Assembly: GCA_030753015.1 (NCBI GenBank)
Contig: JASMDC010000059.1
Span: 1 to 17,367, forward strand
Direction of reading: 5' to 3'
Origin: Candidatus Undinarchaeales archaeon
GTDB taxonomy: Archaea > SpSt-1190 > JASMDC01
Length of the DNA stretch: 17,367 bases
The notes under the pieces were generated by a model, which saw only the letters and a program-made list of their open reading frames with translations, did no database searches and was not told the DNA's origin. Positions 3,130-17,260 of the stretch are shown in pieces. The position numbers were made by a program, and so were the translations under genes. The first letter of the stretch is position 1, and every line of letters begins with the position of its first letter.

Positions 3130-3152
3130 CTGGCTCACCCGTGAACGATTCC

Positions 3153-3160
3153 CTTTTATG
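3153..3160 (+). promoter_or_regulatory. TATA-like box of the large exported protein
   Basis: CTTTTATG has its centre about 26 bases upstream of ATG 3183. That spacing puts the expected transcription start at or within a few bases of the ATG, so the message would be leaderless. It also argues that ATG 3183, not GTG 3141, is the true start. Confidence 0.5.
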
Positions 3161-3182
3161 CTTTGGGTGGCCTCCGCACCGT

Positions 3183-5975
3183 ATGGTAAGACGGAGGAGT
3201 GTCGCGGTCCTGGTGGCCTTCCTGACGCTCCTCTCACCGGTCACCGGCGAGGACGAACCGACGTTCGACTCGACCGTCTTTCTGGCATCGCTCCTCCCCG
3301 GGACGATCGACTGCCCTCCGGGTATGGTCCGCGTTGACGCCTTCTGGGGGAGCTTCTGTATCGATCAGTACGAGGCGTCCCGCGACGATCGTATGTGGAC
3401 AGTGTCCATCGTGGGGGGGAGGCCATGGACCAATATAACCTGGGAGCGGGCGCGGTTCGTATGCGGGCTCTCCGGAAAACGCTTGTGCACTGGCAGGGAA
3501 TGGCTCGCTGCCTGTGACCTCCAGGGACAGAAGTACGACCTCACGCAAGAGGGTACAGCGGAGCGCTTCGATTGCCACACGTACTGCTCGAACTGCACGC
3601 TGGAGGCGGCCGCGAACCACGATACGGGCGCACACCCCGAGTGTCGGTCTGGATCGAACGCCTACGACATGGTCGGCAACGTTTGGGAGTGGACCGAAGA
3701 GACGGTGCCCGATCATGGCTGGGCAGGTTCTGAGCGTTCCGTGGGCGATGTGCTCGGCAAGGACCCCAAGCGTTATGGGAACGATCATGTCTACCCTCCG
3801 GTCGATAATACCGGGAAGGGGAACCCGGTCCGGCGTGGCGGCTCGTGGAGCACCATCTCCTTCCAGGGGGCCGAGCGGGCCGGATGCTTCTCGCTACATT
3901 TCGCGAACAGCGGGCCTGACGTGCGCACCGGCTACCGGTGCTGTTACGGCTTCGATCCGAGCCCGCTCCCCACGGGGACGCTCGCCGATGCATTAGAGGA
4001 TCGTAACAGCCGCTATCTGGAGGGCATGCGCCAGGGTATCGACCTCAGCCATGAAAAGCGGTTCCAGGAAGCACTGGTCGCCTTCGAGGACGCCCGCGCC
4101 ATCTCGCCAGCGAGCCCCGAGGCCAATAACGGCCGGGCGGTGGCGCTGGCCGGACTGGAACGTCTGGACGCGGCCATCGTAGTGGAGGACAGCGTCCTGG
4201 ACAACGATCCCGACGATACCTACGCGCTCGCCAACAAGGGCGTGTTCCTTATCCGTGCGAAACGATACGAAGAGGCCATCAACACCTACGACCACCTCCT
4301 CGAGCTCGTCCAGGGAGATGAGCGGGCAATCGGTAACTATGCGTACGCTCTCACCGCCATGCTCGCCGAGGCCACTGCAACACCTTCGCAAGTCCCTTCC
4401 CCGGAACCGCCTGCTCCCACACCCACCGCTGAGCCTACGCCGATCTCCGAGCCCACACCGACCGCCGAGCCTTCGGCCACGCCGACCGTGGAAGTGGTCG
4501 GTCCGTCACTCAAACCCTGTCTGGGGCACCGCATCCAATGCGAGGGGAAGTGCATTGATATCACGAGCGATCCCCGGAACTGCGGTGCGTGCGGAATATC
4601 ATGCATCGTCCCCAACGCCGCAGTGGGATGCTCGGGCGGCGTCTGTTCCCTCATCGACTGCATGCCCGGGTACGAAAGCTGTGACCTGCGTCGGAATACA
4701 GGGTGCGAGACCTTCGTTCGAACTGATCCTGGGAACTGTGGGGGATGCAGGAGGCGATGTCCTTTGGGGGAGGCGTGCGTTGACGGGGCCTGCATGGTGC
4801 TCACGGCAGAGCCCCTGGTGTCCGTGATCCCCCCGGAGGAGGTGTGCGAGGACGACAATCCCTGCACACGGAACGCGGGTGCGGACGGCGCCTGCGAGAT
4901 AGTCGCCGTCGACTGCGGCCACTCGTGCGGAGAGGGTCGCGTCTGCAACGGTGACACCGAGTGCGTCCCGCTCAGCGATATCGATGGGCCCTGTGCCTGT
5001 GCTGCCATGTGCACCCCGGGCCTGACCTGCACTTCCAGTGGCTGCAGCCGGGTCATCTCCTCGTGCGGTGATGGGCGGTGCGAGCCGGGCGAGTGCTCGG
5101 AATGCCCTGGCGACTGCTCCCCGACCCATTGCGCAGGGAACGGCCGGTGCGATGCCACGGTCGGCGAGACATGTGCCACCGCCCGCACCGACTGCCTCTG
5201 TGCCCAGGGCCTGGTCTGCAAGCCCGAGATCGAGGGCGCCCTGAAGAACGGGTGCTACGAGGTGGTGTGCGGTGATGGGAGCTGTGATTTCCCCGAGACC
5301 GCCGTCGGCTGCTGCCATGACTGTCCAAGCCCCGAGGGTTACGGTTGTCACGATGAATCCCAGATGTGCATGCTCACGTGCGGCAACGGTCAATGTAACG
5401 AGTGGGAATGCAATATCTGCACACAGGACTGCACCTGTGACGATTGTCGATGCTCTTTCACGATGAGCATAATCAAGAACATCGAACTGAAGGTGAACGA
5501 GAACCACAAGCATCTGTTCTTCATTCGCAACACGGGCATCATCCAGGACACCTACCATGTCGGTGTCACCTCCCCGATCGATACTGGCTGGCTCGGCGAG
5601 CGTACGGTGCAGCTCGAGCCGGGGGAGGACGAGGAGTTCACCCTCCATATCCGCCCCGAAGAGGCGGGGACATTCAGGATAACCGTTCACGTTGAGGCAC
5701 TGGGCACACACGATACGAAGGAGCTCTCGACCGTGCTCACCGTCTCCCGCCAGGGGGCCATGGACGAGGTGCTGGGCGGGCTGGCCCCGATCTTTGGGCT
5801 CAAGGACCTAGCAGAGATCATCATCATCACAGTCTCGCTCGTGTTCGCGGGCCGACGCTACCTGCAGTACCGACGGAACCTCGATGCGATGTCCCGACAG
5901 ACCCATGCGCTCGAACGGATGCGGGCAGAGACCCTGCATGGTGGAGGCCAAGCATATGCCAACAGACGCTATTGA
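3183..5975 (+). CDS. Exported modular protein: FGE/SUMF1-like, TPR, Cys-rich repeats, beta domain, C-terminal anchor
   Basis: This is a 930-residue surface protein. The ATG at 3183 gives a textbook signal peptide (MVRRR, hydrophobic VAVLVAFLTLL, then SPVTGEDE); a GTG at 3141 would bury it. Order: FGE/SUMF1-like domain about 44-256 (CPPGMVRVD, FCIDQYEAS, GKRLCTGREW, MVGNVWEW, RRGGSW, TGYRC); TPR-like helices about 275-395; Pro/Thr linker about 400-437; Cys-rich repeats about 446-757 (DPRNCGACG, CGDGRCEPGECSECPGDC); Ig/NEW3-like beta domain about 765-855; membrane helix about 875-890 with a basic cytoplasmic tail. The FGE active-site C-x4-C after RGGS(Y/W) is absent (STISFQG instead), so formylglycine synthesis is unlikely and a binding role fits better. 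The repeat styles resemble myxobacterial secreted proteins, suggesting domain transfer from bacteria. It overlaps the next gene by 20 bases. Substrate unknown. Confidence 0.85.
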   Translation: MVRRRSVAVLVAFLTLLSPVTGEDEPTFDSTVFLASLLPGTIDCPPGMVRVDAFWGSFCIDQYEASRDDRMWTVSIVGGRPWTNITWERARFVCGLSGKRLCTGREWLAACDLQGQKYDLTQEGTAERFDCHTYCSNCTLEAAANHDTGAHPECRSGSNAYDMVGNVWEWTEETVPDHGWAGSERSVGDVLGKDPKRYGNDHVYPPVDNTGKGNPVRRGGSWSTISFQGAERAGCFSLHFANSGPDVRTGYRCCYGFDPSPLPTGTLADALEDRNSRYLEGMRQGIDLSHEKRFQEALVAFEDARAISPASPEANNGRAVALAGLERLDAAIVVEDSVLDNDPDDTYALANKGVFLIRAKRYEEAINTYDHLLELVQGDERAIGNYAYALTAMLAEATATPSQVPSPEPPAPTPTAEPTPISEPTPTAEPSATPTVEVVGPSLKPCLGHRIQCEGKCIDITSDPRNCGACGISCIVPNAAVGCSGGVCSLIDCMPGYESCDLRRNTGCETFVRTDPGNCGGCRRRCPLGEACVDGACMVLTAEPLVSVIPPEEVCEDDNPCTRNAGADGACEIVAVDCGHSCGEGRVCNGDTECVPLSDIDGPCACAAMCTPGLTCTSSGCSRVISSCGDGRCEPGECSECPGDCSPTHCAGNGRCDATVGETCATARTDCLCAQGLVCKPEIEGALKNGCYEVVCGDGSCDFPETAVGCCHDCPSPEGYGCHDESQMCMLTCGNGQCNEWECNICTQDCTCDDCRCSFTMSIIKNIELKVNENHKHLFFIRNTGIIQDTYHVGVTSPIDTGWLGERTVQLEPGEDEEFTLHIRPEEAGTFRITVHVEALGTHDTKELSTVLTVSRQGAMDEVLGGLAPIFGLKDLAEIIIITVSLVFAGRRYLQYRRNLDAMSRQTHALERMRAETLHGGGQAYANRRY

Positions 5976-7230
5976 TTCCGTATCATCGCTCGGAAAGGTC
6001 GCCCGGGACCTCGCCACGCAGGTCAGGGGCCGCGAGGCGGAGGTCGTCGGCCGGTACGGCGGCGCCCTCGGTACCGACGAGACGAAGCGCTATCTTCGCA
6101 CCCGGTCCAAGGCGGTCGAGCGCGTGGTATCGCTCGGTGCCGTGCTCGATCACAGTGACAACTGCCTGTACTACGGGGCGCTCTCACCCGGATGCGAGCT
6201 GTGCCGCAGAGGTTCGTGGGACTGCGTGTACGTGACACATGCATGCACCCGGTCATGCTTCTTCTGCGCTCAGTCCCGGACGAGCGCCACGCCCCTGCCC
6301 AACGTGGGGGGTGAGCACTTCACCGCGCCGGCGGGCCTCGTCGCCCACGAGCGTCGACGTGGGAACGACGGGTGCGCTCTCTCGGGGGGTGATCCCCTGT
6401 GCCGTCCGGATGACTCACTGGCCATGATCGAAGCGATGCGGTCGTCCTTCGGTCCATCGTTCCGCATCTGGCTCTACACCAACGGCGATCTCCTCACCCC
6501 CGACCTCCTCACCCGGCTCAAGGACGCCGGCCTCGACGAACTTCGCTTCAACATAGCGGGGAAGGGTTACGATGTCAAGGCGCTCGAGCTGGCCCGCGAC
6601 ATAATCGACCGGATCGCCGTGGAAATCCCCATGATACCCGAGGACGAGGAGCGGCTCAGACGCATGCTCCCGGTGTTCAAGGACGTCGGTGTCGACCACA
6701 TCAACCTCCATGAGCTCGTGTACACGCCCGACAACGTCGAACAGCTCAGCGAGCGAGGGTACCTGTGCATGACCGGCGCCTCGCCCATGGACCGGTACGT
6801 AGAGAACCGCCCCGTCCTTGGCAGCGAGCTGACCGCCCTTCGGCTGCTGGAGCACAACATCCGGTCTGGCATCCGGCTCCCGATCAACATCTGCACCTAC
6901 TGCTACAAGGTCAACGTCCAGATCCCGGCCCTACGCCGCCGCGATTCCCGGCTGGTGGTCCGGCCCCACGAGCGCGTCGGGTACGACGGGATGTGCGAGA
7001 CCCTGCTCGTCAAGGGCCCGCCGCCGCTCCTGACGAAGGTCGAGAGCTTCCTCCTGGGACGGGGGGTGGCGCGCGATGCCCTGCGTCGCCAGCGTGACCG
7101 GCTCTATGTCCACCCGCGCCATGCCCGTGACGTGAAGGAACTGGAGGGCCTTCCCGGTGTCGAGAGCGGACTGCTGCGGACGCAACCGACCCAGGGCCCG
7201 GAGCGCAATGACGTCGAGCTCAGGCTATGA
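5956..7230 (+). CDS. Radical SAM protein, COG2108 type
   Basis: This 424-residue protein has the radical SAM CxxxCxxC motif at C97, C101 and C104 (ACTRSCFFCAQ), which binds the 4Fe-4S cluster that cleaves SAM. The GGD motif (LSGGDPLC) and LYTNGD strand support a TIM-barrel core. Extra cysteines precede the core (C70, C80, C83, C90; PGCELCRRGSWDC) and CTYC lies at 313-316, so further metal or cluster binding is possible. This pattern matches an uncharacterised archaeal group related to pyruvate-formate-lyase activases (COG2108). The ATG at 5956 is chosen because GGTGGAGG lies 8-15 bases upstream; in-frame codons from 5884 lie inside the upstream gene. It is coupled to the exported protein by overlap; its stop overlaps the tail of the convergent OB gene. 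Substrate unknown. Confidence 0.85.
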   Translation: MPTDAIDSVSSLGKVARDLATQVRGREAEVVGRYGGALGTDETKRYLRTRSKAVERVVSLGAVLDHSDNCLYYGALSPGCELCRRGSWDCVYVTHACTRSCFFCAQSRTSATPLPNVGGEHFTAPAGLVAHERRRGNDGCALSGGDPLCRPDDSLAMIEAMRSSFGPSFRIWLYTNGDLLTPDLLTRLKDAGLDELRFNIAGKGYDVKALELARDIIDRIAVEIPMIPEDEERLRRMLPVFKDVGVDHINLHELVYTPDNVEQLSERGYLCMTGASPMDRYVENRPVLGSELTALRLLEHNIRSGIRLPINICTYCYKVNVQIPALRRRDSRLVVRPHERVGYDGMCETLLVKGPPPLLTKVESFLLGRGVARDALRRQRDRLYVHPRHARDVKELEGLPGVESGLLRTQPTQGPERNDVELRL

Positions 7231-7545
7231 GCCCTGTCGAGAGCGGGGAGCAAGACGCACGCTACCATGGCCGAGCGCAAGCTCCACGGTGCGCCCGTAG
7301 ATCTTGACGATCCCGTCCCGGACCTCCACAACGTTCCCCAGGCGGAACCGCCCGGCGTCCTCACCCCACAGGACGAGCCTGATGCGGGGGCTGCCCTCCG
7401 GGTCCTCGATCTCGAGACGCTGGCGGGCGACCGTGCGGCCGTCCTTGGTGGTGACCTCCTTTGCAGGCTCCGACTTGACGATGCGGGCGCGTACGTTCAT
7501 GTCCACGGTGAACGGCTTGAGGTCGGCGACCCGGGTCCACTTCAT
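7225..7545 (-). CDS. Single OB-fold nucleic-acid-binding protein (SSB/RPA-like)
   Basis: This 106-residue protein is one OB fold. Its strand pattern resembles crenarchaeal single-OB SSB: LKPF...VNVRARIV, then ARQRLEIEDPEG, IRLVLWGEDAGRFRLGNVVEVRDGIVKIYGRTVEL. The LxLWG...A..f..GdvV core is the typical ssDNA-binding OB signature. There is no acidic C-terminal tail like that of bacterial SSB and no zinc finger. It is transcribed divergently from the helicase with 51 bases between start codons, and runs tail to tail into the radical SAM gene. It probably binds ssDNA or RNA; a helicase partnership is inferred from position only. Confidence 0.8.
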   Translation of the reverse strand: MKWTRVADLKPFTVDMNVRARIVKSEPAKEVTTKDGRTVARQRLEIEDPEGSPRIRLVLWGEDAGRFRLGNVVEVRDGIVKIYGRTVELALGHGSVRLAPRSRQGS

Positions 7546-7565
7546 GGACGTCTCTCCTATGGCAC

Positions 7566-7578
7566 AAGTTTAAGAATC
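7566..7578. promoter_or_regulatory. Shared bidirectional TATA region between OB gene and helicase
   Basis: AGTTTAAGAATCA reads as a weak TATA box in both directions (GTTTAAGAA forward, TTCTTAAAC reverse). Its centre near 7572 is 25 bases from the helicase ATG at 7597 and 27 bases from the OB-fold ATG at 7545. It is the only AT-rich stretch in the 51-base divergent gap, so both genes probably use it. Confidence 0.5.
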
Positions 7579-7596
7579 ATCCCGCGGGTGGCGGAC

Positions 7597-10065
7597 ATGA
7601 TGCTCCTGGCCATCCACGGACACGAACGCAAGGCCGGGACCTGGCGGATCGAGCACATCCGTGCCACGAATGCCGGTTCGGTGCGTCACATAGATCCGGT
7701 GCGTCGGATGACGGTGAAGATGGACATGTCCGACCTCACCCCTGTGAAGTACTACACCGACGTCGAGGGACGGCGCGAGTTCGACGAGCCCCGCTCCTTC
7801 ATCGACCATCTCCGCAAGGCCAAGCACATCCTCCTCGAGGACGACTCGCTCACACAATTGCTCGAGCGCTACCAGCTTGAGGGCGAGACGGCGTCCTTCT
7901 GCCGACACTGTTTTCTGGCAGAACGGGCCACTGTGCTGGACGAGAGCGACATCCAGTGGGGCTCCGAACGGCTGTGCCTGGACTGCGCTGAGCACGAGAT
8001 GAAGCACGAGTTCCGCAGCTGGTTCGGCAGGAACGTGGACTCGGACCTCAAGCCCTTCATCAGGAAGGCGGGAGAGCTGGACGCCGCGATGAAGCTCTTT
8101 GATCCCCGCATCGATCCTCTGACCACTCCCGAGAAGAGCCTCCACTCGGTCGTGAAGCCCAAGAAGGACGCAGTGCGCTGCCTGCAGGTCGCACGGCTCC
8201 CCATCCCTGGCGGAATGAAGGCTACCCTGAAGAAGGTGGGTGTCAAGGAGCTCACACCGGTCCAATCGCTCGCCGTCAAGGCCGGGCTCCTGGATGGGAA
8301 TGACCTTTTGGTCGTCTCCGCCACGGCCTCGGGGAAGACCCTTGTCGGTGAGCTCGCGGGCGTGCCCCGGGCGCTCGACGGTCGCCGGCTCCTGTTCCTC
8401 GTGCCCCTGGTGGCGCTTGCCAACCAAAAGTACAACGAGTTCACCGAGCGGTACGGTCCTCTAGGGCTCACCGTGTCCCTTCGCGTGGGCTTCTCGCGCC
8501 TCGAGATGGTGTCCGGCGTGAACCGGGACCATGCAGCGGACATCGTGGTCGGTACGTACGAGGGTGTGGACCACCTCATGCGCTGCGGCACGCGGCCCGA
8601 CAACGTCGGCTGCGTTGTCATCGACGAGGTCCACATGCTCGGTTCCGATGAGCGGGGCCCACGGCTCGACGGCTTCCTGGCGCGTCTGCGGACGTTCTAC
8701 CCTGACGCCCAGTTCGTGGGCCTCTCCGCCTCGGTCGGGAACCCGCGTCGCCTCGCCGAGTCACTGGGGACCGAGCTGGTGGAGCATGCCGGACGACCGG
8801 TCGCCCTGGAACGCCACCTGGTGATCGTGCGCGATGCCAACGACAAGCAGCGACAGCTGGAGCGGTACTGCGCTCGCGAGTGGAACACCCGCGCCAAGGG
8901 CGGCGTGCGCGGCCAGTCGCTCGTGTTCACCAATGCCCGTCGCAAGGCGGAAGAGCAGGCAAGGACGCTGACGAAAGCAGGCATCCCGTCCAAGGCCTAC
9001 CACTCCGGCCTCACCTACGCCAAACGCAAGGAGGTCGAGCGCGAGTTCATGTCGCGTGCCATCGGCGCGGTAGTGAGCACCGCAGCATTGGGGGCGGGTA
9101 TCGACTTTCCCGCGTCGCAGGTGGTGTTCGAGTCGCTGGCCATGGGTATCGAGTGGCTCACCGTGCAGGAGTTCCAGCAGATGGCGGGGCGTGCGGGCAG
9201 GCCCACCTACCATTCCCGGGGGCTTGCAGTAGTGCTCGCGGAAGTTGGACGCGGCCTCCATCCGTCGATCGGTGGCACGGAGGAGTCCATGGCGTTCCGT
9301 CTAATGGAGGGCACCCTAGAGCCCGTGGACGTGGAGTACTCCAAGGACGCCGATGACGAGCAGGTGCTCGCAACGATGGTGTGCGGAGTGCCTGCCGACG
9401 ACGTGGACGGGCTGCTCCATCGTGCGGTGGGGTTCGACGCGGACGTTGATCCAATCATCGAAGGGCTCGTGCGCGCGGGGCTCGTTGCGGACGGGCGGCC
9501 CACGCCACTGGGCGAGGTGGCGTCACGGCACTTCCTCACCATCGAACAGGTCGACCTCATGGTGGACACGATCGGTAAGGAGCCCGAGGAGTTCGTGGAA
9601 CGGGCGCGCCCCTTCGACCGGGCGTACCTCGGCCGCGGCCTTTCTCGGACCATCGAGGGGATACTGGGCATCCGGGCGCCCACGCGGTTCTTCGACGGCA
9701 GGTTCCTCGACATCTACCAGCGGAACCGGGACCAGCTCGAGGCACGTATGGGCCGGTACGTGCGCATGGTCACCAAGGCGTTCTTCTCCTGCCATTGCCG
9801 GGGCCGTCCATTCTGCGGGTGCCCCGAGCGGCGGTTCACGGAGTACCTGCTCACCCTCCGGCGCCGTGGTCTCGATCCCCGGGCCATGGCGAAGCAGGCA
9901 CAGAAGGACTACTGGCTCAAGGTCTACTCGGGCGACGTCATCCGCTGGCTGGACGATGTCATCCGCTGGCTCGAGGCCAGGGAGGCGGTGGCCCGCATCC
10001 TGGATGAAGGGAAGGTCGGGCGTGAGACCCGTGATCTACGCAATAAATTACAGGGAAGGATCTAA
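7597..10065 (+). CDS. Archaea-specific Ski2-like superfamily 2 helicase (COG1202 type)
   Basis: This is an 822-residue ATP-dependent helicase. The N-terminal region (1-200) carries a zinc-finger-like CRHC (102-105) and CLDC (127-130). Helicase motifs: I ATASGKT (242-248), II DEVH (343-346), III SAS (377-379), IV-V region SLVFTN and STAALGAGIDFP, VI QQMAGRAGRP (527-536). The C-terminal part has winged-helix-like sequence and a second Cys cluster, CHC...CGC (732-742). This architecture matches the archaeal COG1202/DUF5814 group, distinct from Hel308. The open frame continues upstream to 7267, but that part overlies the oppositely oriented OB gene and the promoter, so I start at the MM pair at 7597 (a GTG at 7588 is possible). 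A 7-residue tandem duplication (DVIRWLD) lies near the C-terminus. Confidence 0.9.
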   Translation: MMLLAIHGHERKAGTWRIEHIRATNAGSVRHIDPVRRMTVKMDMSDLTPVKYYTDVEGRREFDEPRSFIDHLRKAKHILLEDDSLTQLLERYQLEGETASFCRHCFLAERATVLDESDIQWGSERLCLDCAEHEMKHEFRSWFGRNVDSDLKPFIRKAGELDAAMKLFDPRIDPLTTPEKSLHSVVKPKKDAVRCLQVARLPIPGGMKATLKKVGVKELTPVQSLAVKAGLLDGNDLLVVSATASGKTLVGELAGVPRALDGRRLLFLVPLVALANQKYNEFTERYGPLGLTVSLRVGFSRLEMVSGVNRDHAADIVVGTYEGVDHLMRCGTRPDNVGCVVIDEVHMLGSDERGPRLDGFLARLRTFYPDAQFVGLSASVGNPRRLAESLGTELVEHAGRPVALERHLVIVRDANDKQRQLERYCAREWNTRAKGGVRGQSLVFTNARRKAEEQARTLTKAGIPSKAYHSGLTYAKRKEVEREFMSRAIGAVVSTAALGAGIDFPASQVVFESLAMGIEWLTVQEFQQMAGRAGRPTYHSRGLAVVLAEVGRGLHPSIGGTEESMAFRLMEGTLEPVDVEYSKDADDEQVLATMVCGVPADDVDGLLHRAVGFDADVDPIIEGLVRAGLVADGRPTPLGEVASRHFLTIEQVDLMVDTIGKEPEEFVERARPFDRAYLGRGLSRTIEGILGIRAPTRFFDGRFLDIYQRNRDQLEARMGRYVRMVTKAFFSCHCRGRPFCGCPERRFTEYLLTLRRRGLDPRAMAKQAQKDYWLKVYSGDVIRWLDDVIRWLEAREAVARILDEGKVGRETRDLRNKLQGRI

Positions 10066-11375: not shown

Positions 11376-12746
11376 CTAGGCAGACCGCTTGAACCGGGAC
11401 TGGAAGTGGCGGAGGATGGGCGCCTCGTACTCGAAGTCAAGGCCCTGGACATCGTGTCGCCGCCCCCACACACCAGCGACGGTGTCGGCGATGTAGTCCA
11501 TGTGCTCCTGGGTGTACACGCGGCGGGGGATGGTAAGACGCGTGAGCTCCAGGGCCGGGTGGATGTTCTCTCCGGTGTCCGGGTCACGTCCTGCGAGCAG
11601 GGTACCGATCTCTACCGAGCGCACACCGCCCTCGAGGTATAGCTCCACGCACAGGGTGTGGGCGGGGAACATGTCCTGAGTGATGTGGGGGAAGAACGTC
11701 TTGGCGTCGATGTAGATGGCATGCCCTCCAACGGGCTTGACGATTGGAACCCCTGTCGCCTCCAGACGCCGGCCCAGGTACTCGATCTGGCCGATACGGT
11801 AGGCGAGATACGGCTCCTCGATGGCCTCGTACAGCCCGCGCGCCATCGCCTCGATGTCCCGGCCGTTCATGCCGCCGTAGGTCGGGAAGCCCTCGAACAG
11901 CACACAGATGGGGCACAGCTTCTGGTACAGTTCCTCGTCGCGCAGGGCCAGGAAACCGCCCATGTTGACGATGGCGTCCTTCTTCGCGCTCATCAGCACG
12001 CCGTCGACGCACGAGAATATGTTGCGCACGATATCGCGGATGGACTTGTTCTTCTGCTCGGGCTCCCTGGTCTTGATGAACCAGGCGTTCTCGGCGTACC
12101 TGGCTGCGTCGATGTAGAGCAGGACCTTGTGCTCGTGGCAGATGGCCGACACGTCACGGATGTTCTGGAGGGATACCGGCTGGCCGCCGCCCGAGTTGTT
12201 CGTGATGGTGATCAGAACGTAGGCGACGTTCAACGGGTCCGGCTCGATGACGGCGCGCAGCTTGTCCAAGTCCAGATCCCCCTTGAAGGGGAGCTCGGCC
12301 GCGGGGTCGTGGATGGCATCGATGGTGCAGTCCACGGCCCGTCCGCCGAGGACCTCGATGTGGGCCTTTGTGGTGTCGAAGTGGATGTTGCCCGGGACGG
12401 TCTGGCCTTCCTTGAGCAGGACGCGGTTGAGCACCTGCTCGGCACCCCTCCCCTGGTGGCAGGGGATGACGAACTCGAACCCCATGATGTCCTTGACGGT
12501 GTTACGGAGGTTGTGGAAGTTGCGCGAGCCCGCGTACGACTCGTCGCCCAGCATGATGCCCGCCCACTGGTTGTCGCTCATGGCACCCGTACCGCTGTCG
12601 GTGAGAAGATCGATGAACACGTCCTTGGAGTTGAGGAGGAAGGGATTGAAACCGGCCTCGACGATCGCCCGCTCGCGCTCCTCCCGAGGTATGAGCTTGA
12701 TGGGCTCGACCATCTTGATCTTGTAGGGCGGTATCATCCGTTCCAT
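11376..12746 (-). CDS. tnaA: Tryptophanase (L-tryptophan indole-lyase)
   Basis: This 456-residue PLP enzyme of the beta-eliminating lyase family converts tryptophan to indole, pyruvate and ammonia. Family hallmarks: NPFLLNSKDVFIDLLTDSGTGAMS, HQGRGAEQ, GGQPVS, PLP lysine in MSAKKDA, EGFPTYGG, LTIPRRVYTQEHMD. Three positions that separate tryptophanase from tyrosine phenol-lyase all read as tryptophanase: Asp in HFDTT (Thr in TPL), Ile in VEIGTLL (Arg in TPL), His in LRHF (Phe in TPL). The ATG at 12746 (MERMIPPYKIK) is preferred over ATG 12800 because a TATA box lies 27 bases upstream and homologues start here. No TnaC-like leader is possible with this promoter. Transfer from bacteria is plausible but untested. 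Confidence 0.93.
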   Translation of the reverse strand: MERMIPPYKIKMVEPIKLIPREERERAIVEAGFNPFLLNSKDVFIDLLTDSGTGAMSDNQWAGIMLGDESYAGSRNFHNLRNTVKDIMGFEFVIPCHQGRGAEQVLNRVLLKEGQTVPGNIHFDTTKAHIEVLGGRAVDCTIDAIHDPAAELPFKGDLDLDKLRAVIEPDPLNVAYVLITITNNSGGGQPVSLQNIRDVSAICHEHKVLLYIDAARYAENAWFIKTREPEQKNKSIRDIVRNIFSCVDGVLMSAKKDAIVNMGGFLALRDEELYQKLCPICVLFEGFPTYGGMNGRDIEAMARGLYEAIEEPYLAYRIGQIEYLGRRLEATGVPIVKPVGGHAIYIDAKTFFPHITQDMFPAHTLCVELYLEGGVRSVEIGTLLAGRDPDTGENIHPALELTRLTIPRRVYTQEHMDYIADTVAGVWGRRHDVQGLDFEYEAPILRHFQSRFKRSA

Positions 12747-12768
12747 GCAGCCAGCCTGCGGGAGTAGA

Positions 12769-12778
12769 CTTAAAAGAG
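12769..12778 (-). promoter_or_regulatory. TATA box of tryptophanase gene
   Basis: On the minus strand CTCTTTTAAGTC is centred 27 bases upstream of ATG 12746, leaving no room for a leader or attenuator peptide. No Shine-Dalgarno sequence precedes the ATG, consistent with leaderless translation. Confidence 0.55.
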
Positions 12779-12830
12779 GACCCGGGAGGCGTGCCACCAT
12801 GGGACAGGGCCGTGTTGTGGCCTGCAGGTT

Positions 12831-12848: not shown

Positions 12849-12875
12849 CCTGTCCTGCCGAGATTGTCGGACAGG
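12849..12875. promoter_or_regulatory. Operator-like inverted repeat over the predicted transcription start
   Basis: CCTGTCC (12849-12855) and GGACAGG (12869-12875) form a perfect 7-base inverted repeat with a 13-base spacer. The right arm overlaps the predicted transcription start. Placement just downstream of TATA is where archaeal repressors commonly bind. It could instead form an RNA hairpin in part; the transcript would contain mainly the right arm, so DNA binding is more likely. Confidence 0.4.
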
Positions 12876-12878
12876 GCG

Positions 12879-13700
12879 ATGGATTCTATCGTGAGCAACG
12901 AGTACTTGGACCTCGACCTCGAGGTCTATCAACCAGACGACCTCGTGCCCGGCCAGGACTCGTGCAACCTCGCCTTCGACGTCCATATCGACGGAAAGAG
13001 GGTCGACAAGGTCAAGTACGACCTGGAGTTCCATGCACCGTCCTACGGCGACATCCCGCCCGAGATCAAGTTCTCCGAGGACTTCTCCAACGGCCAGACA
13101 CGCTACCGGGGCAAGGAGGTCAAGGCATTCATCGGCACGTCCCTTGTCCAGGGGACCAAGGAGTTCCTCAAGGCCGGGTTCCTCGCAGGCGGCGCCTTCC
13201 TCGGCCTGGCAGCGGGCCCGTACGGTCCACTGGCCGCGGTAGGGCTGGGTGCTGCGGGCGCCACGGTCGGACGGTACCTCGGTGACAGGCTCGGCGACTA
13301 CGTGGAGTCCAAGCAGACGTACAAGTTCTTCCAGGAGCAGGACTGGGGCAAGCGCTCCTTTGGCACCAGCCGCGCCACCATGGACCGCCTCGAAGAGGAC
13401 TATCTCAACCTGCCCGACGAGATCGCGCCGTCCGCCGAGTACAACGAACGCATCCTGCACGCCAAGCTCAAGCTCAACCCGGACGCCGGCCCCGTCGTCG
13501 ACAACACCTTCGTTAGCGTCCGCTACGACGTGCGCCACGACAAGGACCACTACATGCCCTTCAGCCTGACGGTGAAGTACAAGCCCAAGGGCGAGAAGCG
13601 GCAGGAGAAGGTGGTCCGCGGGTACGCTGTGTTCCACGACGATGTGTTCTCGCGTGTGGAGCTGCTTAAGGAAGGGGAGCCCGGGGCAGAGGACTGCTAG
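12879..13700 (+). CDS. Unrecognised protein with Gly/Ala-rich hydrophobic hairpin
   Basis: This 273-residue protein is of unknown family. Residues about 1-85 are acidic and beta-rich (YLDLDLEVYQ, FDVHIDGKRVDKV). Residues about 98-134 form a hydrophobic Gly/Ala-rich stretch with a GPYGP turn (AGFLAGGAFLGLAAG ... AAVGLGAAGATVG), long enough for two short membrane spans or a glycine-zipper hairpin. The remainder is soluble, charged and beta-rich with many Asp/Lys pairs. There is no signal peptide. The ATG at 12879 fits the promoter and GGGCG; a TTG at 12864 lies in the operator. Tryptophanase is divergent upstream and the next operon convergent downstream. A conditional membrane-inserting protein is one reading; function unknown. 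Confidence 0.75.
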   Translation: MDSIVSNEYLDLDLEVYQPDDLVPGQDSCNLAFDVHIDGKRVDKVKYDLEFHAPSYGDIPPEIKFSEDFSNGQTRYRGKEVKAFIGTSLVQGTKEFLKAGFLAGGAFLGLAAGPYGPLAAVGLGAAGATVGRYLGDRLGDYVESKQTYKFFQEQDWGKRSFGTSRATMDRLEEDYLNLPDEIAPSAEYNERILHAKLKLNPDAGPVVDNTFVSVRYDVRHDKDHYMPFSLTVKYKPKGEKRQEKVVRGYAVFHDDVFSRVELLKEGEPGAEDC

Positions 13701-13821: not shown

Positions 13822-14184
13822 TCACCCCTTGGGCCTGAACCTGAAGCCCTCTATGGTCTCCTCGCCGAGCATGCGCAGCATGCCCCAGTCGGGGACGAGC
13901 TTCATGCCCATCTCGACATCTTCCGGCTTAGCAAGGACCTGTCCGGTGGCACGTACGGGTTCGTCGAAACCGTCGAAGGCCACGATGCCGAGCACCAGAG
14001 GCCTGGTCTTCACGCCTGTAGGCACTGCCGTGAGCACCGTGTAGGTGACAAGGCTCGCCTCGGCGCCCAGCGGCACCTCCTTGAAATCCCGCGCACCGCA
14101 CTTCGTGCACAAGTCGTGGGCGGGGTACATCACCTTGCCGCACGCAGTACACTGCATGCCCATCATCTTTCGTTCCTCGTCCAT
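13822..14184 (-). CDS. DUF35 zinc-ribbon/OB-fold protein
   Basis: This 120-residue protein has the DUF35 build: N-terminal rubredoxin-like zinc ribbon (CTAC ... CTKCG, near residues 12-30), then an OB fold (SLVTYTVLTAVPTGVKTRPLVLGIVAF, PVRATGQV). DUF35 proteins bind and shuttle acyl-CoA in complexes with thiolases, HMG-CoA synthases and steroid aldolases. The ATG at 14184 is chosen because GAGGTGA sits 7-13 bases upstream; the GTG at 14193 is part of that Shine-Dalgarno sequence. It lies 1 base after the thiolase-like gene, so the two are almost certainly co-translated partners. Confidence 0.9.
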   Translation of the reverse strand: MDEERKMMGMQCTACGKVMYPAHDLCTKCGARDFKEVPLGAEASLVTYTVLTAVPTGVKTRPLVLGIVAFDGFDEPVRATGQVLAKPEDVEMGMKLVPDWGMLRMLGEETIEGFRFRPKG

Positions 14185-14185
14185 C

Positions 14186-15364
14186 TCAGTCACCTCGCTC
14201 CAGGATGTGGGCGACGACGTTGTTGCCGAACCCGCCGAAGTTCACCGTGAAAGCGCGCTGGGCTCCGCTGACCTGCCGCCTACCGGCATCGCCGCGAAGC
14301 TGCCACGTGCACTCAACGAGCTGGGCCGCACCTGTCGCGCCGACAGGGTGGCCTCTTGCTTTGAGCCCGCCGGACGGATTGATCGGGAGCTTCCCGCCGA
14401 TCTGGGTGACGCCCTCGCGCAGCGCTGTCGCGCACTTCCCGGGCTCGAAGAAGCCGGCGTTCTCGCTCTCGGCGAACTCCAGGATGGTGAACGCGTCGTG
14501 CAGCTCCAGGAAGTCGATGTCCTTGCGCTCGACGCCCGCCATGGCAAACGCCCTGTCGGCAGCAATCTGCACGCTCTTGAGCACCAGCGGATCTGGCCGC
14601 TCGTGCACGGCATGCAGGTCGGTGCCCTGCCCCACGCCCGCGATGCGTACCGGGGTGTCGCAGAGCTCTTTTGCCTTCTCCAGCGGACAGAGGATGAACG
14701 CGGCAGCACCGTCGCTCACCGGGCACATGTCGTAGAGCCGGAGCGGATCAGCGATGACCGGGTTGTTGAGCTTTGCCTCACGCGAGAGCAGGATGCCCTC
14801 AAGGGCGATCTTCTGGTGGATGTGGGCGTAGGGGTTGAGCATACCGTTGGCATGGTTCTTCACGGCGACGTTGGCCAAATCCTCGCTGGTGATGCCGTAT
14901 TTGTCCATGTACAATCGTGCGAACATCCCCGCCAGCGACGGCAGGGTGACGCCGTGGATGTACTCGGCCTTCGGATGGCTCATCATGGCGACGAAGTCGG
15001 TGATGGTCCCGCCGGGAGCGACGCGCATGCGCTCGCCTCCGGCCACCAGCACGCAATCCGAGTAGCCCGATGCCACCTCGAAGAACCCCAGCTTGGCGGC
15101 GTTCTGGCCTGACGCTGGACCGTTCTCGATGGCCACGGCACTGGTCTTTCCAAGGAGCCCCAGCCGGTCGATGACGGCGGACGCGAGGGCGGTCTGGCGG
15201 TTGATTGCGCCGGCGCCCATGTTTGCCACGTACACCGAGTCGATGCCCGGGTTCCCGCAGTCGTCCATGGCAGCAAGACAGGCCTTGGCGATCATCTCGT
15301 CCAGTTCGTACGAGAGGCGCCCGAACTTGGTCATGCCAACGCCGACGATGGCGACGTCGCGCAC
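14186..15364 (-). CDS. Thiolase-fold protein (SCP-x type) lacking the nucleophilic cysteine
   Basis: This 392-residue protein has the SCP2/SCP-x thiolase fold. Retained motifs: VAIVGVGMTKFG at the N-terminus, LHDAF (288-292), NPSGGLKARGHPVGATG with catalytic His339, and C-terminal NFGGFGNN. At the position where active thiolases carry E-N-A-C-A-S-G the sequence is E-N-G-P-A-S-G (Pro83), and the C-terminal GG-x-G loop has no cysteine. The usual covalent Claisen mechanism is therefore unlikely. It starts at GTG 15364 behind GAAGGA, 3 bases after the GNAT-like gene, and is followed by its DUF35 partner. Cysteine-less thiolase-fold/DUF35 pairs include Ltp2-type side-chain aldolases; that role is inference here. 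Confidence 0.88.
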   Translation of the reverse strand: MRDVAIVGVGMTKFGRLSYELDEMIAKACLAAMDDCGNPGIDSVYVANMGAGAINRQTALASAVIDRLGLLGKTSAVAIENGPASGQNAAKLGFFEVASGYSDCVLVAGGERMRVAPGGTITDFVAMMSHPKAEYIHGVTLPSLAGMFARLYMDKYGITSEDLANVAVKNHANGMLNPYAHIHQKIALEGILLSREAKLNNPVIADPLRLYDMCPVSDGAAAFILCPLEKAKELCDTPVRIAGVGQGTDLHAVHERPDPLVLKSVQIAADRAFAMAGVERKDIDFLELHDAFTILEFAESENAGFFEPGKCATALREGVTQIGGKLPINPSGGLKARGHPVGATGAAQLVECTWQLRGDAGRRQVSGAQRAFTVNFGGFGNNVVAHILERGD

Positions 15365-15367
15365 GGT

Positions 15368-16042
15368 CTATCCTTCCCCTGTGACGCGGCGCCTGATCTC
15401 TTCTGGCGGCGGTACGATGATCTCTTTGTTGGCCTCGATGATCTCGTCGGGCACGGGTCGCTCGCCAAAGAGCTTCTCGGGCTTCATGAAGGTCTCGAAG
15501 TTCTCTTTAGTGAGCACCCAGGAGTCGACACCGCCCAGCTCGTGATGGACCTCGTTCTTGGGCTCGAGCCTCAGCTCCTCCATCCAGCGCCGGAACCCGA
15601 TCGGGCTCTCGGCCACGACGAGGACCTCCTCCTGGTCCATCATGAAGTGGTACTCCATCTTGGCCGGGAACAGGTGCGCCCCCACGCGCAGGCCCCGCTT
15701 CAGGGCCATGGTGTGGTAGCTCATCCCCGTCTTGTCGTCCACGATCCGGCCGTTGACGATCCCGACGATCTCGCCGTCGATGAGGCCCACCAGGCAGTAC
15801 TCGTCGCGAACGCGGTAACGGTACCAGCCCAGCAGCTCGGCGTACACTCGTGATGCCACGATGTCGTAGTAGTCCTTGGCAACGGTGGTCAGCGGGCGGA
15901 CCGCATCGAGGAGCTTGGGCACCTCCTCGCGTTCTGCCTGCCGGATCAGCAGCTTCTCCCCGCTCACAAGCGTGATAACCTTGGGCGGGTAGGGTTTCAT
16001 CTCCCTTTCAGGAGGTCTCAGAAGGTCCTCGTCTCCAACCAT
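15368..16042 (-). CDS. GNAT-like acetyltransferase-fold protein
   Basis: This protein, 224 residues from the chosen start, has a probable GNAT fold: KLLIRQAEREEVPKLLDAV (first strand and helix), YCLVGLIDGEIVGIVNGRI (central strands), then MALKRGLRVGAHLFPAKMEY where an acetyl-CoA loop would lie, and VLVVAESPIGFRRWMEELRL. The pyrophosphate loop (usually Q/R-x-x-G-x-G/A) is degenerate, so activity is uncertain. An in-frame ATG at 16090 gives 240 residues, but it overlaps a TATA-like ATTAAATGC; the start at 16042 leaves a short leader with GGGGGA and is preferred weakly. It is the first gene of the thiolase-like/DUF35 operon, so it may act on the same acyl-CoA. Confidence 0.6.
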   Translation of the reverse strand: MVGDEDLLRPPEREMKPYPPKVITLVSGEKLLIRQAEREEVPKLLDAVRPLTTVAKDYYDIVASRVYAELLGWYRYRVRDEYCLVGLIDGEIVGIVNGRIVDDKTGMSYHTMALKRGLRVGAHLFPAKMEYHFMMDQEEVLVVAESPIGFRRWMEELRLEPKNEVHHELGGVDSWVLTKENFETFMKPEKLFGERPVPDEIIEANKEIIVPPPEEIRRRVTGEG

Positions 16043-16085
16043 GATTAGTCCCCCATAGTCTGGGTGTCGGCGGATAGGGACCAAA

Positions 16086-16096
16086 TGCATTTAATC
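16086..16096 (-). promoter_or_regulatory. TATA-like box of the GNAT/thiolase-like/DUF35 operon
   Basis: On the minus strand GGATTAAATGC would place transcription start near 16066, upstream of ATG 16042. A second candidate, the palindromic CTATTAATAG at 16150-16159, could serve either strand and would instead allow the ATG at 16090. Confidence 0.4.
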
Positions 16097-16179: not shown

Positions 16180-16222
16180 GCCACGGTTCGTAGAGAATCG
16201 TGTGTTCAGAGGAAAGGGGACC

Positions 16223-17260
16223 ATGTACGGGATTGTGGACGTTGATCTGGAGACGGAGGGGTACGCCGACGCGCTCGGTGCCGAGACGCGGCACGAGGCC
16301 GACGACCTCGTTGCGAACAAGCTCTCGCAGTACGCCATCTCTGCTGCCACGCTCATCGGTGTATCGTACGGCCTCGACGTCTTCACCTCGTTCTCGATCG
16401 CCCGCCTGACCAACGCGCGACAGGACCCCAACGAGTACCTCTCGTCGGAAGGACAGGAACGCGTCGCAAGCGTCATCGACACCGAGGAGGTCTGGAACGA
16501 CATCTCCGAGAACCCGGACCAGTACTCGGGACAGGACATCGTCGAAAGGCTCCATGCAAAGGTGATGATACACCTTGATTACGACGACTCCTTTGCTGAC
16601 ACCGGCATCGATCCGGCGGTCGACGACGGTTCTGGCATCTGCTTCGACTTCTCGGGCATGACCTACTCGGCCCTGCTCAAGCTCGCGGCCGACCACCCCG
16701 AGATCGCCGAGCAGGCACAGGACGTGCGCTGGGTGTTCGGGGCCTCCGGCGAGGAGAACATCGGGCATGCCTGGTTGCACGTGCGCGGGGAGGACGGCGT
16801 CTGGCACAACTACGATGCCACCGTGGACTACGTGGAGAACGGCATGGGCAACGCCGACATCGTTCACCAGTACCCGCCCGTGGACATGGGCAAGTACATC
16901 GACATGGGCAGCGTCCAGCAGGCGGCCGACGGTACGTACGATCATGACATGGTGTGGGAGAACATCCTCCTCCCCAAGATGTCCGCCGGCGAGCAGCTGC
17001 TGAACATGTACGAGATGAAGACCGGCAACGACATCCCCAACAACGTCGAGCAGTACCTGCCCGAGACGTTCATCCTCGTGGCCGGCACCACCGGTATCAC
17101 CACCGGTGTCAAGTGGACCTTTGGGAAGGTCTGGGAGTGGATCAAGGGCCGCCGTGGCGGCGGTGGCGGAGATGACGGGGACGACGACAGTGGTGGAGAG
17201 GATCTCGAGCGCTACCTCGAGGAGATGGAGCGCAAGCACCGGCAGAAGGACGGGGAGTAG
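16223..17260 (+). CDS. Membrane-associated transglutaminase-like protein
   Basis: This 345-residue protein carries the ordered Cys-His-Asp triad of the transglutaminase-like superfamily: Cys140 in GICFDFSG, His182 in GHAWLHV, Asp198 in HNYDATVD. Such enzymes act as cysteine peptidases or amide-transferring enzymes. A hydrophobic segment lies near 39-61 (ISAATLIGVSYGLDVF) and another near 282-305 (TFILVAGTTGITTGV), followed by a basic stretch, a Gly/Asp-rich linker and a charged C-terminal helix. Two membrane spans are possible, which would put the catalytic core on one side, probably outside. The ATG at 16223 is preferred over GTG 16202 because GAGGAAAGGGG precedes it. It is divergent from the GNAT-like operon. 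Substrate unknown. Confidence 0.78.
   Translation: MYGIVDVDLETEGYADALGAETRHEADDLVANKLSQYAISAATLIGVSYGLDVFTSFSIARLTNARQDPNEYLSSEGQERVASVIDTEEVWNDISENPDQYSGQDIVERLHAKVMIHLDYDDSFADTGIDPAVDDGSGICFDFSGMTYSALLKLAADHPEIAEQAQDVRWVFGASGEENIGHAWLHVRGEDGVWHNYDATVDYVENGMGNADIVHQYPPVDMGKYIDMGSVQQAADGTYDHDMVWENILLPKMSAGEQLLNMYEMKTGNDIPNNVEQYLPETFILVAGTTGITTGVKWTFGKVWEWIKGRRGGGGGDDGDDDSGGEDLERYLEEMERKHRQKDGE

Follow-up and report, generated by a model that had tools for sequence, protein, structure and literature searches.

A cysteine-free thiolase-fold protein encoded with DUF35 and GNAT-like partners, and its association with nucleobase-catabolic genes in archaea and Anaerolineae

What reaction can be expected from a thiolase-fold protein whose nucleophilic cysteine is replaced by proline? 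This question is raised by a gene in a 17,367-nt stretch of DNA from a Candidatus Undinarchaeales archaeon (contig JASMDC010000059.1), hereafter called the window (Table 1). Genes for L44e, S27e, and aIF2-alpha at 519–1777 indicate that the contig is archaeal. The thiolase open reading frame is intact and starts with GTG, and its product matches Thiolase_N, Thiolase_C, and Thiolase_C_1 of Pfam, each above the cut-off. Residues 80–86 read E-N-G-P-A-S-G with P83, residues 288–292 read L-H-D-A-F with HDAF at 289–292, and the C-terminal part harbors GHP at 338–340 (H339) followed by NFGGFGNN at 375–382.

Table 1. Positions of the features discussed, numbered along the window
Feature	Position	Strand	Basis
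SCP2-type thiolase-fold protein without catalytic cysteines, 392 aa	14186..15364	-	Pfam, alignments, AF2 model
Codon CCA of Pro83, the residue replacing the nucleophilic Cys	15116..15118	-	Sequence and alignments
Stand-alone DUF35 protein (zf-ChsH2 and OB_ChsH2_C), 123 aa, with four Zn-ribbon cysteines	13822..14193	-	Pfam
GNAT-like protein (longest ORF 15368–16090; likely start ATG 16042)	15368..16042	-	Family alignment, AF2, Foldseek

In alignments with the solved relatives 7YVY and 6ESQ and with zebrafish SCP2-thiolase, P83 occupies the column of the nucleophilic cysteine, just as a first-pass annotation of this DNA had proposed, and A291 occupies that of the second catalytic cysteine of the HDCF motif. 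The same annotation had noted a missing second cysteine: the loss is real, but its place is not the C-terminal GG-x-G loop, since in the SCP2-like family this cysteine sits in HDCF, and HDAF, which had been counted among the retained elements, is itself the loss. His289, His339 of GHP, and the SDG/CoA segment are retained in alignments with archaeal and zebrafish SCP2-type thiolases. By these alignments, two catalytic thiols are lost and two catalytic histidines are retained. HDAF by itself is not unusual: it also occurs together with an intact nucleophile in 7YVY and several archaeal thiolases. As judged from the residues compared, what is unusual is the proline at the nucleophile place and its combination with HDAF. 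For example, the Pyrococcus furiosus thiolase PFC_04095 (7YVY; 41–43% identity) shares HDAF and GHP with the window protein but keeps the nucleophilic cysteine (EAACASG), and the thiolase of 6ESQ (36% identity) has the same fold and a DUF35 partner but retains the nucleophilic cysteine as well as HDCF, and its linkage is to HMG-CoA synthase. Assignment as an SCP2-type or archaeal Claisen thiolase was rejected: the thiolase fold and the GHP histidine (H339) are there, but the nucleophilic cysteine of the N-terminal CxS loop (P83) and the HDCF cysteine (HDAF) are absent.

A scan of the genome collection yielded about 30 loci with the signature of the window protein, from Hadarchaeota, Thermoproteota, Asgard archaea, Anaerolineae, Bipolaricaulota, Fidelibacterota, and Sumerlaeota. 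In a maximum-likelihood tree they form one clade with a support of 100/95, comprising 31 rows (two identical), 30 of which read NGPASG and one (L062) NGTASG. Among 26 aligned bacterial and archaeal relatives of the clade, N81, G82, A84, S85, and G86 around the proline are invariant, and so are H289, D290, A291, F292, G338, H339, and P340 as well as F379, G380, and N382 of the C-terminal loop; the retention of His339 claimed in the first-pass annotation thus holds for the whole set. P83 itself is conserved at 90% or more, with Thr in L062. This conservation, together with the invariance of the neighboring residues, argues that the proline is due neither to chance nor to a sequencing error, and the aligned sequences confirm that the cysteine loss is genuine and evolutionarily stable.

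The closest tree rows outside the clade are a Thorarchaeal protein (L115) and ST0096 from Sulfolobus tokodaii (PDB 4YZO), both of which are also cysteine-less; the node with L115 is supported at 100/99, and the branch joining 4YZO alone, a long branch, at 97/61. ST0096 is the nearest solved row to the clade and, furthermore, the closest solved fold to the AF2 model of the window thiolase (pLDDT 86) in Foldseek, with 38% identity and TM 0.84/0.94. Like the window protein, it lacks both catalytic cysteines (DNTSGSG, HDMA) and keeps the GHP histidine, an [FY]GN loop, and N81, but it has Ser/Gly instead of Pro at the nucleophile place. Its structure was released in 2016, and no assigned function was found for it. 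A further cysteine-less relative, HLAC_RS17040 of Halorubrum lacusprofundi (45.6% identity; DQTSSSG, HDMF, GGFGNC), has an OB-fold/DUF35-type neighbor, but its context is a TRAP transporter and a CaiB/BaiF CoA-transferase, with no GNAT or AllFGH gene annotated in the stretch read. The clade, L115, ST0096, and the Halorubrum protein have in common a C-terminal [FY]G[NS][NSC] loop, which is not found in the cysteine-bearing relatives compared, the nearest among them being GTGSN of 7YVY. The window thiolase belongs with the uncharacterized cysteine-less relatives of ST0096, in which it represents a distinct subfamily; a literature search found no assay of any clade member. In addition, SCP2-type thiolases at six other archaeal loci (L051, L053, L057, L110, L114, and L131) have the nucleophile replaced by other residues, with variants such as ETGESSG with FDSY, EGGDASG, and EAADASG, and this variety suggests repeated independent loss.

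The DUF35 and thiolase genes have 8 nt in common, and a gap of 3 nt separates the end of the GNAT-like gene from the thiolase start, a tight arrangement indicating that the three genes are likely one transcription unit. The closest solved chains to the DUF35 protein are the DUF35 protein of 6ESQ and ChsH2(DUF35) of 6OK1. Together with P83 and A291, this adjacent gene supports the earlier view of a non-Claisen, cysteine-less thiolase-fold protein paired with DUF35. The start of the GNAT-like gene was judged from an alignment of 24 family homologues. In Pfam its product reaches Acetyltransf_1 only below threshold, and a search of its profile against PDB sequences gave no match; the best Foldseek matches of its AF2 model (pLDDT 85) are GNAT acetyltransferases (E 1.6e-7, TM about 0.5). 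Its pyrophosphate loop is degenerate, RGLRVG in the window and RGL[RQ][VI]G in the family, where the middle Gly of R/Q-x-x-G-x-G/A is replaced. A homologue is found in 28 of the 33 clade loci (two loci being from the same genome) and is absent at the clade loci L062 and L078 and at the Asgard loci; with the modelled GNAT fold, this recurrence is in favor of the earlier suggestion that the GNAT-like protein is a third component.

The neighborhoods of the clade members give the thiolase a metabolic setting. Bacterial clade loci contain AllG, AllH, and FdrA, XDH-like subunits, a PF04199 cyclase, and an NCS2 permease or a BMP-type transporter, in orders such as AllH-FdrA-AllG-GNAT-thiolase-cyclase-NCS2-XdhB-XDH (L159) and NCS2-XDH-FdrA-AllG-cyclase-GNAT-thiolase-DUF35 (L156). 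AllG, AllH, and FdrA are the subunits of oxamate carbamoyltransferase (PMC11326118). All 17 clade-positive Anaerolineae genomes have AllG, against 98 of 249 Anaerolineae genomes overall (hypergeometric p=5e-8, with genome kinship ignored), and in 11 of the 17 it lies within 16 kb of the clade thiolase. Among 150 archaeal relatives, the thiolase is found in three genomes and AllG in four, including all three with the thiolase (p=7e-6, kinship again ignored); in the fourth (G105), AllG and AllH are accompanied by the GNAT gene, and the contig breaks off at the point at which the gene order of G124 would place the thiolase. In the genome of the window, AllH-FdrA-AllG is found on a contig (C28) other than that of the thiolase, and a third contig (C54) encodes a cyclase 55% identical to an Anaerolineae one and three XDH-like subunits, with the same GGGFGGKAG (a KAG active-site variant) and GARGVGEH motifs as in Anaerolineae. 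This genome lacks an NCS2 permease and a CoA-transferase of the type found at L165. CoA-transferases occur in some clusters, as does a carbon-nitrogen hydrolase; the CoA-transferase of the Hadarchaeal cluster was considered as a universal component and rejected, being absent from the genome of the window and from half of the others. AllG is absent from eight of 34 searched genomes: six with clade members (Bipolaricaulota, Fidelibacterota, Methanoperedens-labelled, and Asgard), the outgroup L115, and G045, a genome without a clade thiolase. The tie of the clade to the AllFGH-type nucleobase gene set, which is new relative to the literature searched, is thus strong but not absolute, and the module can serve another pathway. 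A nucleobase pathway is nevertheless the probable setting of the thiolase.

Which nucleobase is degraded is less clear. In Hadarchaea, a uridine phosphorylase gene adjoins the thiolase, at L073 a uridine phosphorylase scores above the cut-off, the nucleoside hydrolase of L164 scores highest against the RihC, UriH, and RihA models, and methylmalonyl-CoA mutase genes adjoin the thiolase/DUF35 genes at L062/L164 and L078; BMP-type transporters in the clusters are a further pyrimidine hint. The L164 cluster (G152:C31:22000-41900) combines the nucleoside hydrolase, ABC transporter genes, methylmalonyl-CoA mutase subunits, and MeaB with thiolase/DUF35, AllG, AllH, XDH-like subunits, and FdrA. Oxidative pyrimidine breakdown leads from uracil to malonate and from thymine to methylmalonate (PMC7662398). 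From chemical reasoning, malonurate, the opened ring of barbiturate, can be regarded as a one-carbon homologue of oxalurate, the substrate of AllFGH. The uridine phosphorylase, the nucleoside hydrolase, and the methylmalonyl-CoA mutase together favor a pyrimidine over an initial reading as a purine, and a pyrimidine is given nearly, but not quite, an even chance of being the base. With the carbon-nitrogen hydrolase, the CoA-transferases, and the TRAP transporter, the same hints favor a small dicarboxylate-type CoA ester as the substrate.

The alternative that fares best keeps the nucleobase pathway but exchanges its substrate, e.g., for xanthine or hypoxanthine, so that the thiolase-like subunit and the GNAT-like protein would act on a different CoA ester by hydrolysis, amide-thioester exchange, or an aldol-type step. 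Indeed, it is in the degradation of purines and allantoin that XDH-like genes and AllFGH are best known (for AllFGH, PMC11326118), and the best solved relative of the XDH-like subunit, 4-hydroxybenzoyl-CoA reductase, leaves the substrate ambiguous; a scan of the NCS2 permease for substrate motifs also gave no recognizable motif. Against this alternative stand the nucleoside hydrolase, uridine phosphorylase, and mutase genes of some clusters, and reading the neighborhoods turned up no genes of the allantoin pathway. The XDH-like subunits, moreover, have Ala at the place of Glu802, the residue with which xanthine enzymes bind the purine. A different base with a different CoA ester is accordingly thought unlikely, if still a serious contender.

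With both thiols gone, the usual acyl-enzyme cannot form and a non-covalent reaction is expected; the window thiolase is very probably a cysteine-independent CoA-thioester enzyme. Our leading, still tentative, explanation is a DUF35-partnered, cysteine-free enzyme of this kind acting late in nucleobase (perhaps pyrimidine) catabolism, possibly by decarboxylating a malonyl-type CoA ester. The thiolase-fold subunit, DUF35, and the GNAT-fold protein would make up one CoA-thioester module, in which DUF35 may form a complex with the thiolase subunit and complete the CoA site. In the complex of M. thermolithotrophicus, the CoA site is shared (PMC12329534; PMC6392133). A small acyl-CoA would be bound non-covalently, its thioester enolate or oxyanion stabilized by the FGNN loop together with His289 and His339, and the likeliest reaction would be decarboxylation or a related C-C cleavage of malonyl-, methylmalonyl-, or malonamoyl-CoA. 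The pathway partners of the module would be the XDH-like molybdenum hydroxylase, the cyclase-family hydrolase, and the AllFGH-type carbamoyltransferase, and uracil or thymine as the base would give rise to a malonyl-type CoA ester.

A weak thiolase-like precedent for decarboxylation of malonyl-CoA is the SCP2-thiolase-like protein of Trypanosoma brucei, TbSLP, solved as a malonyl-CoA complex (5AB7). The reaction is slow, with a kcat of 0.005 per s (quoted in PMC12329534), and TbSLP differs from the window protein in its YDCF motif, the lack of DUF35, and an identity of about 25%. The GNAT-like protein has no clear task in plain decarboxylation, which counts against our explanation. Taken by itself, decarboxylation as the reaction of the thiolase module is somewhat unlikely.

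A wider scheme, a little more doubtful still, is an undescribed, energy-conserving oxidative pyrimidine pathway common to archaea and Anaerolineae. In this pathway, the molybdenum hydroxylase would yield barbiturate, the cyclase would open barbiturate to malonurate, the AllFGH homologues would phosphorolyse malonurate to malonamate and carbamoyl phosphate, and the cysteine-free thiolase/DUF35/GNAT complex would process the malonyl-type CoA ester. No description of such a pathway was found in the open-access literature searched; if true, it would add a new reaction type to the thiolase/DUF35 family.

The first-pass annotation had raised, beside another non-Claisen acyl-CoA enzyme, an aldolase of the Ltp2 type, i.e., retro-aldol cleavage of a beta-hydroxyacyl-CoA by the DUF35-thiolase pair as in the steroid aldolases Ltp2-ChsH2(DUF35) and Sal-Shy(DUF35). 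These are non-thiolytic thiolase-fold enzymes with a DUF35 partner, their structures 6OK1 and 9MYR are among the Foldseek matches of the window thiolase (TM about 0.8), and the adjacent DUF35 gene and the missing nucleophilic cysteine would suit such a reaction. However, both Ltp2 and Sal depend on the Tyr of a Y-D-[HC]-[FY] motif, Sal functioning without the second Tyr (Tyr344 of TcLtp2; PMC12329534), and this catalytic base, found as YDHF or YDCY (PMC12329534), is replaced by His289 in the HDAF of the window protein and in all 26 relatives. The steroid aldolases are partnered with a MaoC-type hydratase, whereas the DUF35 protein of the window stands alone, with no MaoC hydratase fused to it or found among the main ORFs at 10.5–17.3 kb, and its neighbors are the GNAT-like gene and, across the clade, nucleobase genes rather than those of side-chain or other beta-oxidation. 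A steroid or Ltp2-type aldolase is thus unlikely, clearly more so than the change of nucleobase substrate, and the annotation is not supported on this point; an aldolase reaction of a non-Ltp2 kind may still take place.

Least probable is a Claisen thiolase using another cysteine, most plausibly C214 of the CPxSDG loop, the loop by which other thiolases bind pantetheine: this residue is invariant in the 26 relatives, but zebrafish SCP2-thiolase has a Cys there alongside its normal catalytic cysteines, and 4YZO, the closest fold, has Thr.

Cysteine-less thiolase-fold proteins are at present labelled as 3-ketoacyl-CoA thiolase or acetyl-CoA acetyltransferase; HLAC_RS17040, for example, encoded on plasmid pHLAC01 of a cultured archaeon (L173 7989-9514), is annotated as 3-ketoacyl-CoA thiolase. 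The window family is almost certainly neither. The conserved link to AllFGH, the molybdenum hydroxylase, and the cyclase provides a concrete metabolic setting for an orphan fold variant, so that its function can be probed directly, the compounds to try being uracil, thymine, barbiturate, and CoA esters of the malonyl type. The role of AllFGH in Anaerolineae and archaea could be revealed as well, and for ST0096, too, the setting offers a lead.

Other thiolases are encoded elsewhere in the genome of the window (G000; 3.85 Mb with a contamination estimate of 5%, same-class relatives having 0.6–1.1 Mb). No HMG-CoA synthase gene lies beside the window thiolase; the HMGS-like set of this genome is on another contig (C67), together with an HMGS-linked thiolase having both cysteines (L003/L014). 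A second, unrelated cysteine-less thiolase-like protein (EGGGATGG, HDAY) with DUF35 is encoded on C73 (L005, 628–2407; also L015) next to genes recognized by eye as acyl-CoA dehydrogenase-like and enoyl-CoA hydratase-like. Judged by this context, the C73 protein is more likely than the window thiolase to be an acyl-CoA retro-aldolase.

In the window itself, the three-gene unit is flanked by an ORF without Pfam match at 12864–13700 (+) and one with sub-threshold transglutaminase similarity at 16202–17260 (+). At 3141–5975 (+), a large protein has an N-terminal part like formylglycine-generating enzyme and, beyond it, regions of TPR-like and Cys-rich character, as read by eye only. The radical SAM protein at 5884–7230 (+) matches MoaA/heme-synthase models only weakly, and the Hel308-like helicase that comes next, at 7267–10065 (+), scores far short of the Hel308 cut-offs. 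The gene at 11376–12800 (-) encodes, on this archaeal contig, a tryptophanase/tyrosine phenol-lyase-like protein scoring below the curated cut-offs of the TnaA and TPL equivalog models.
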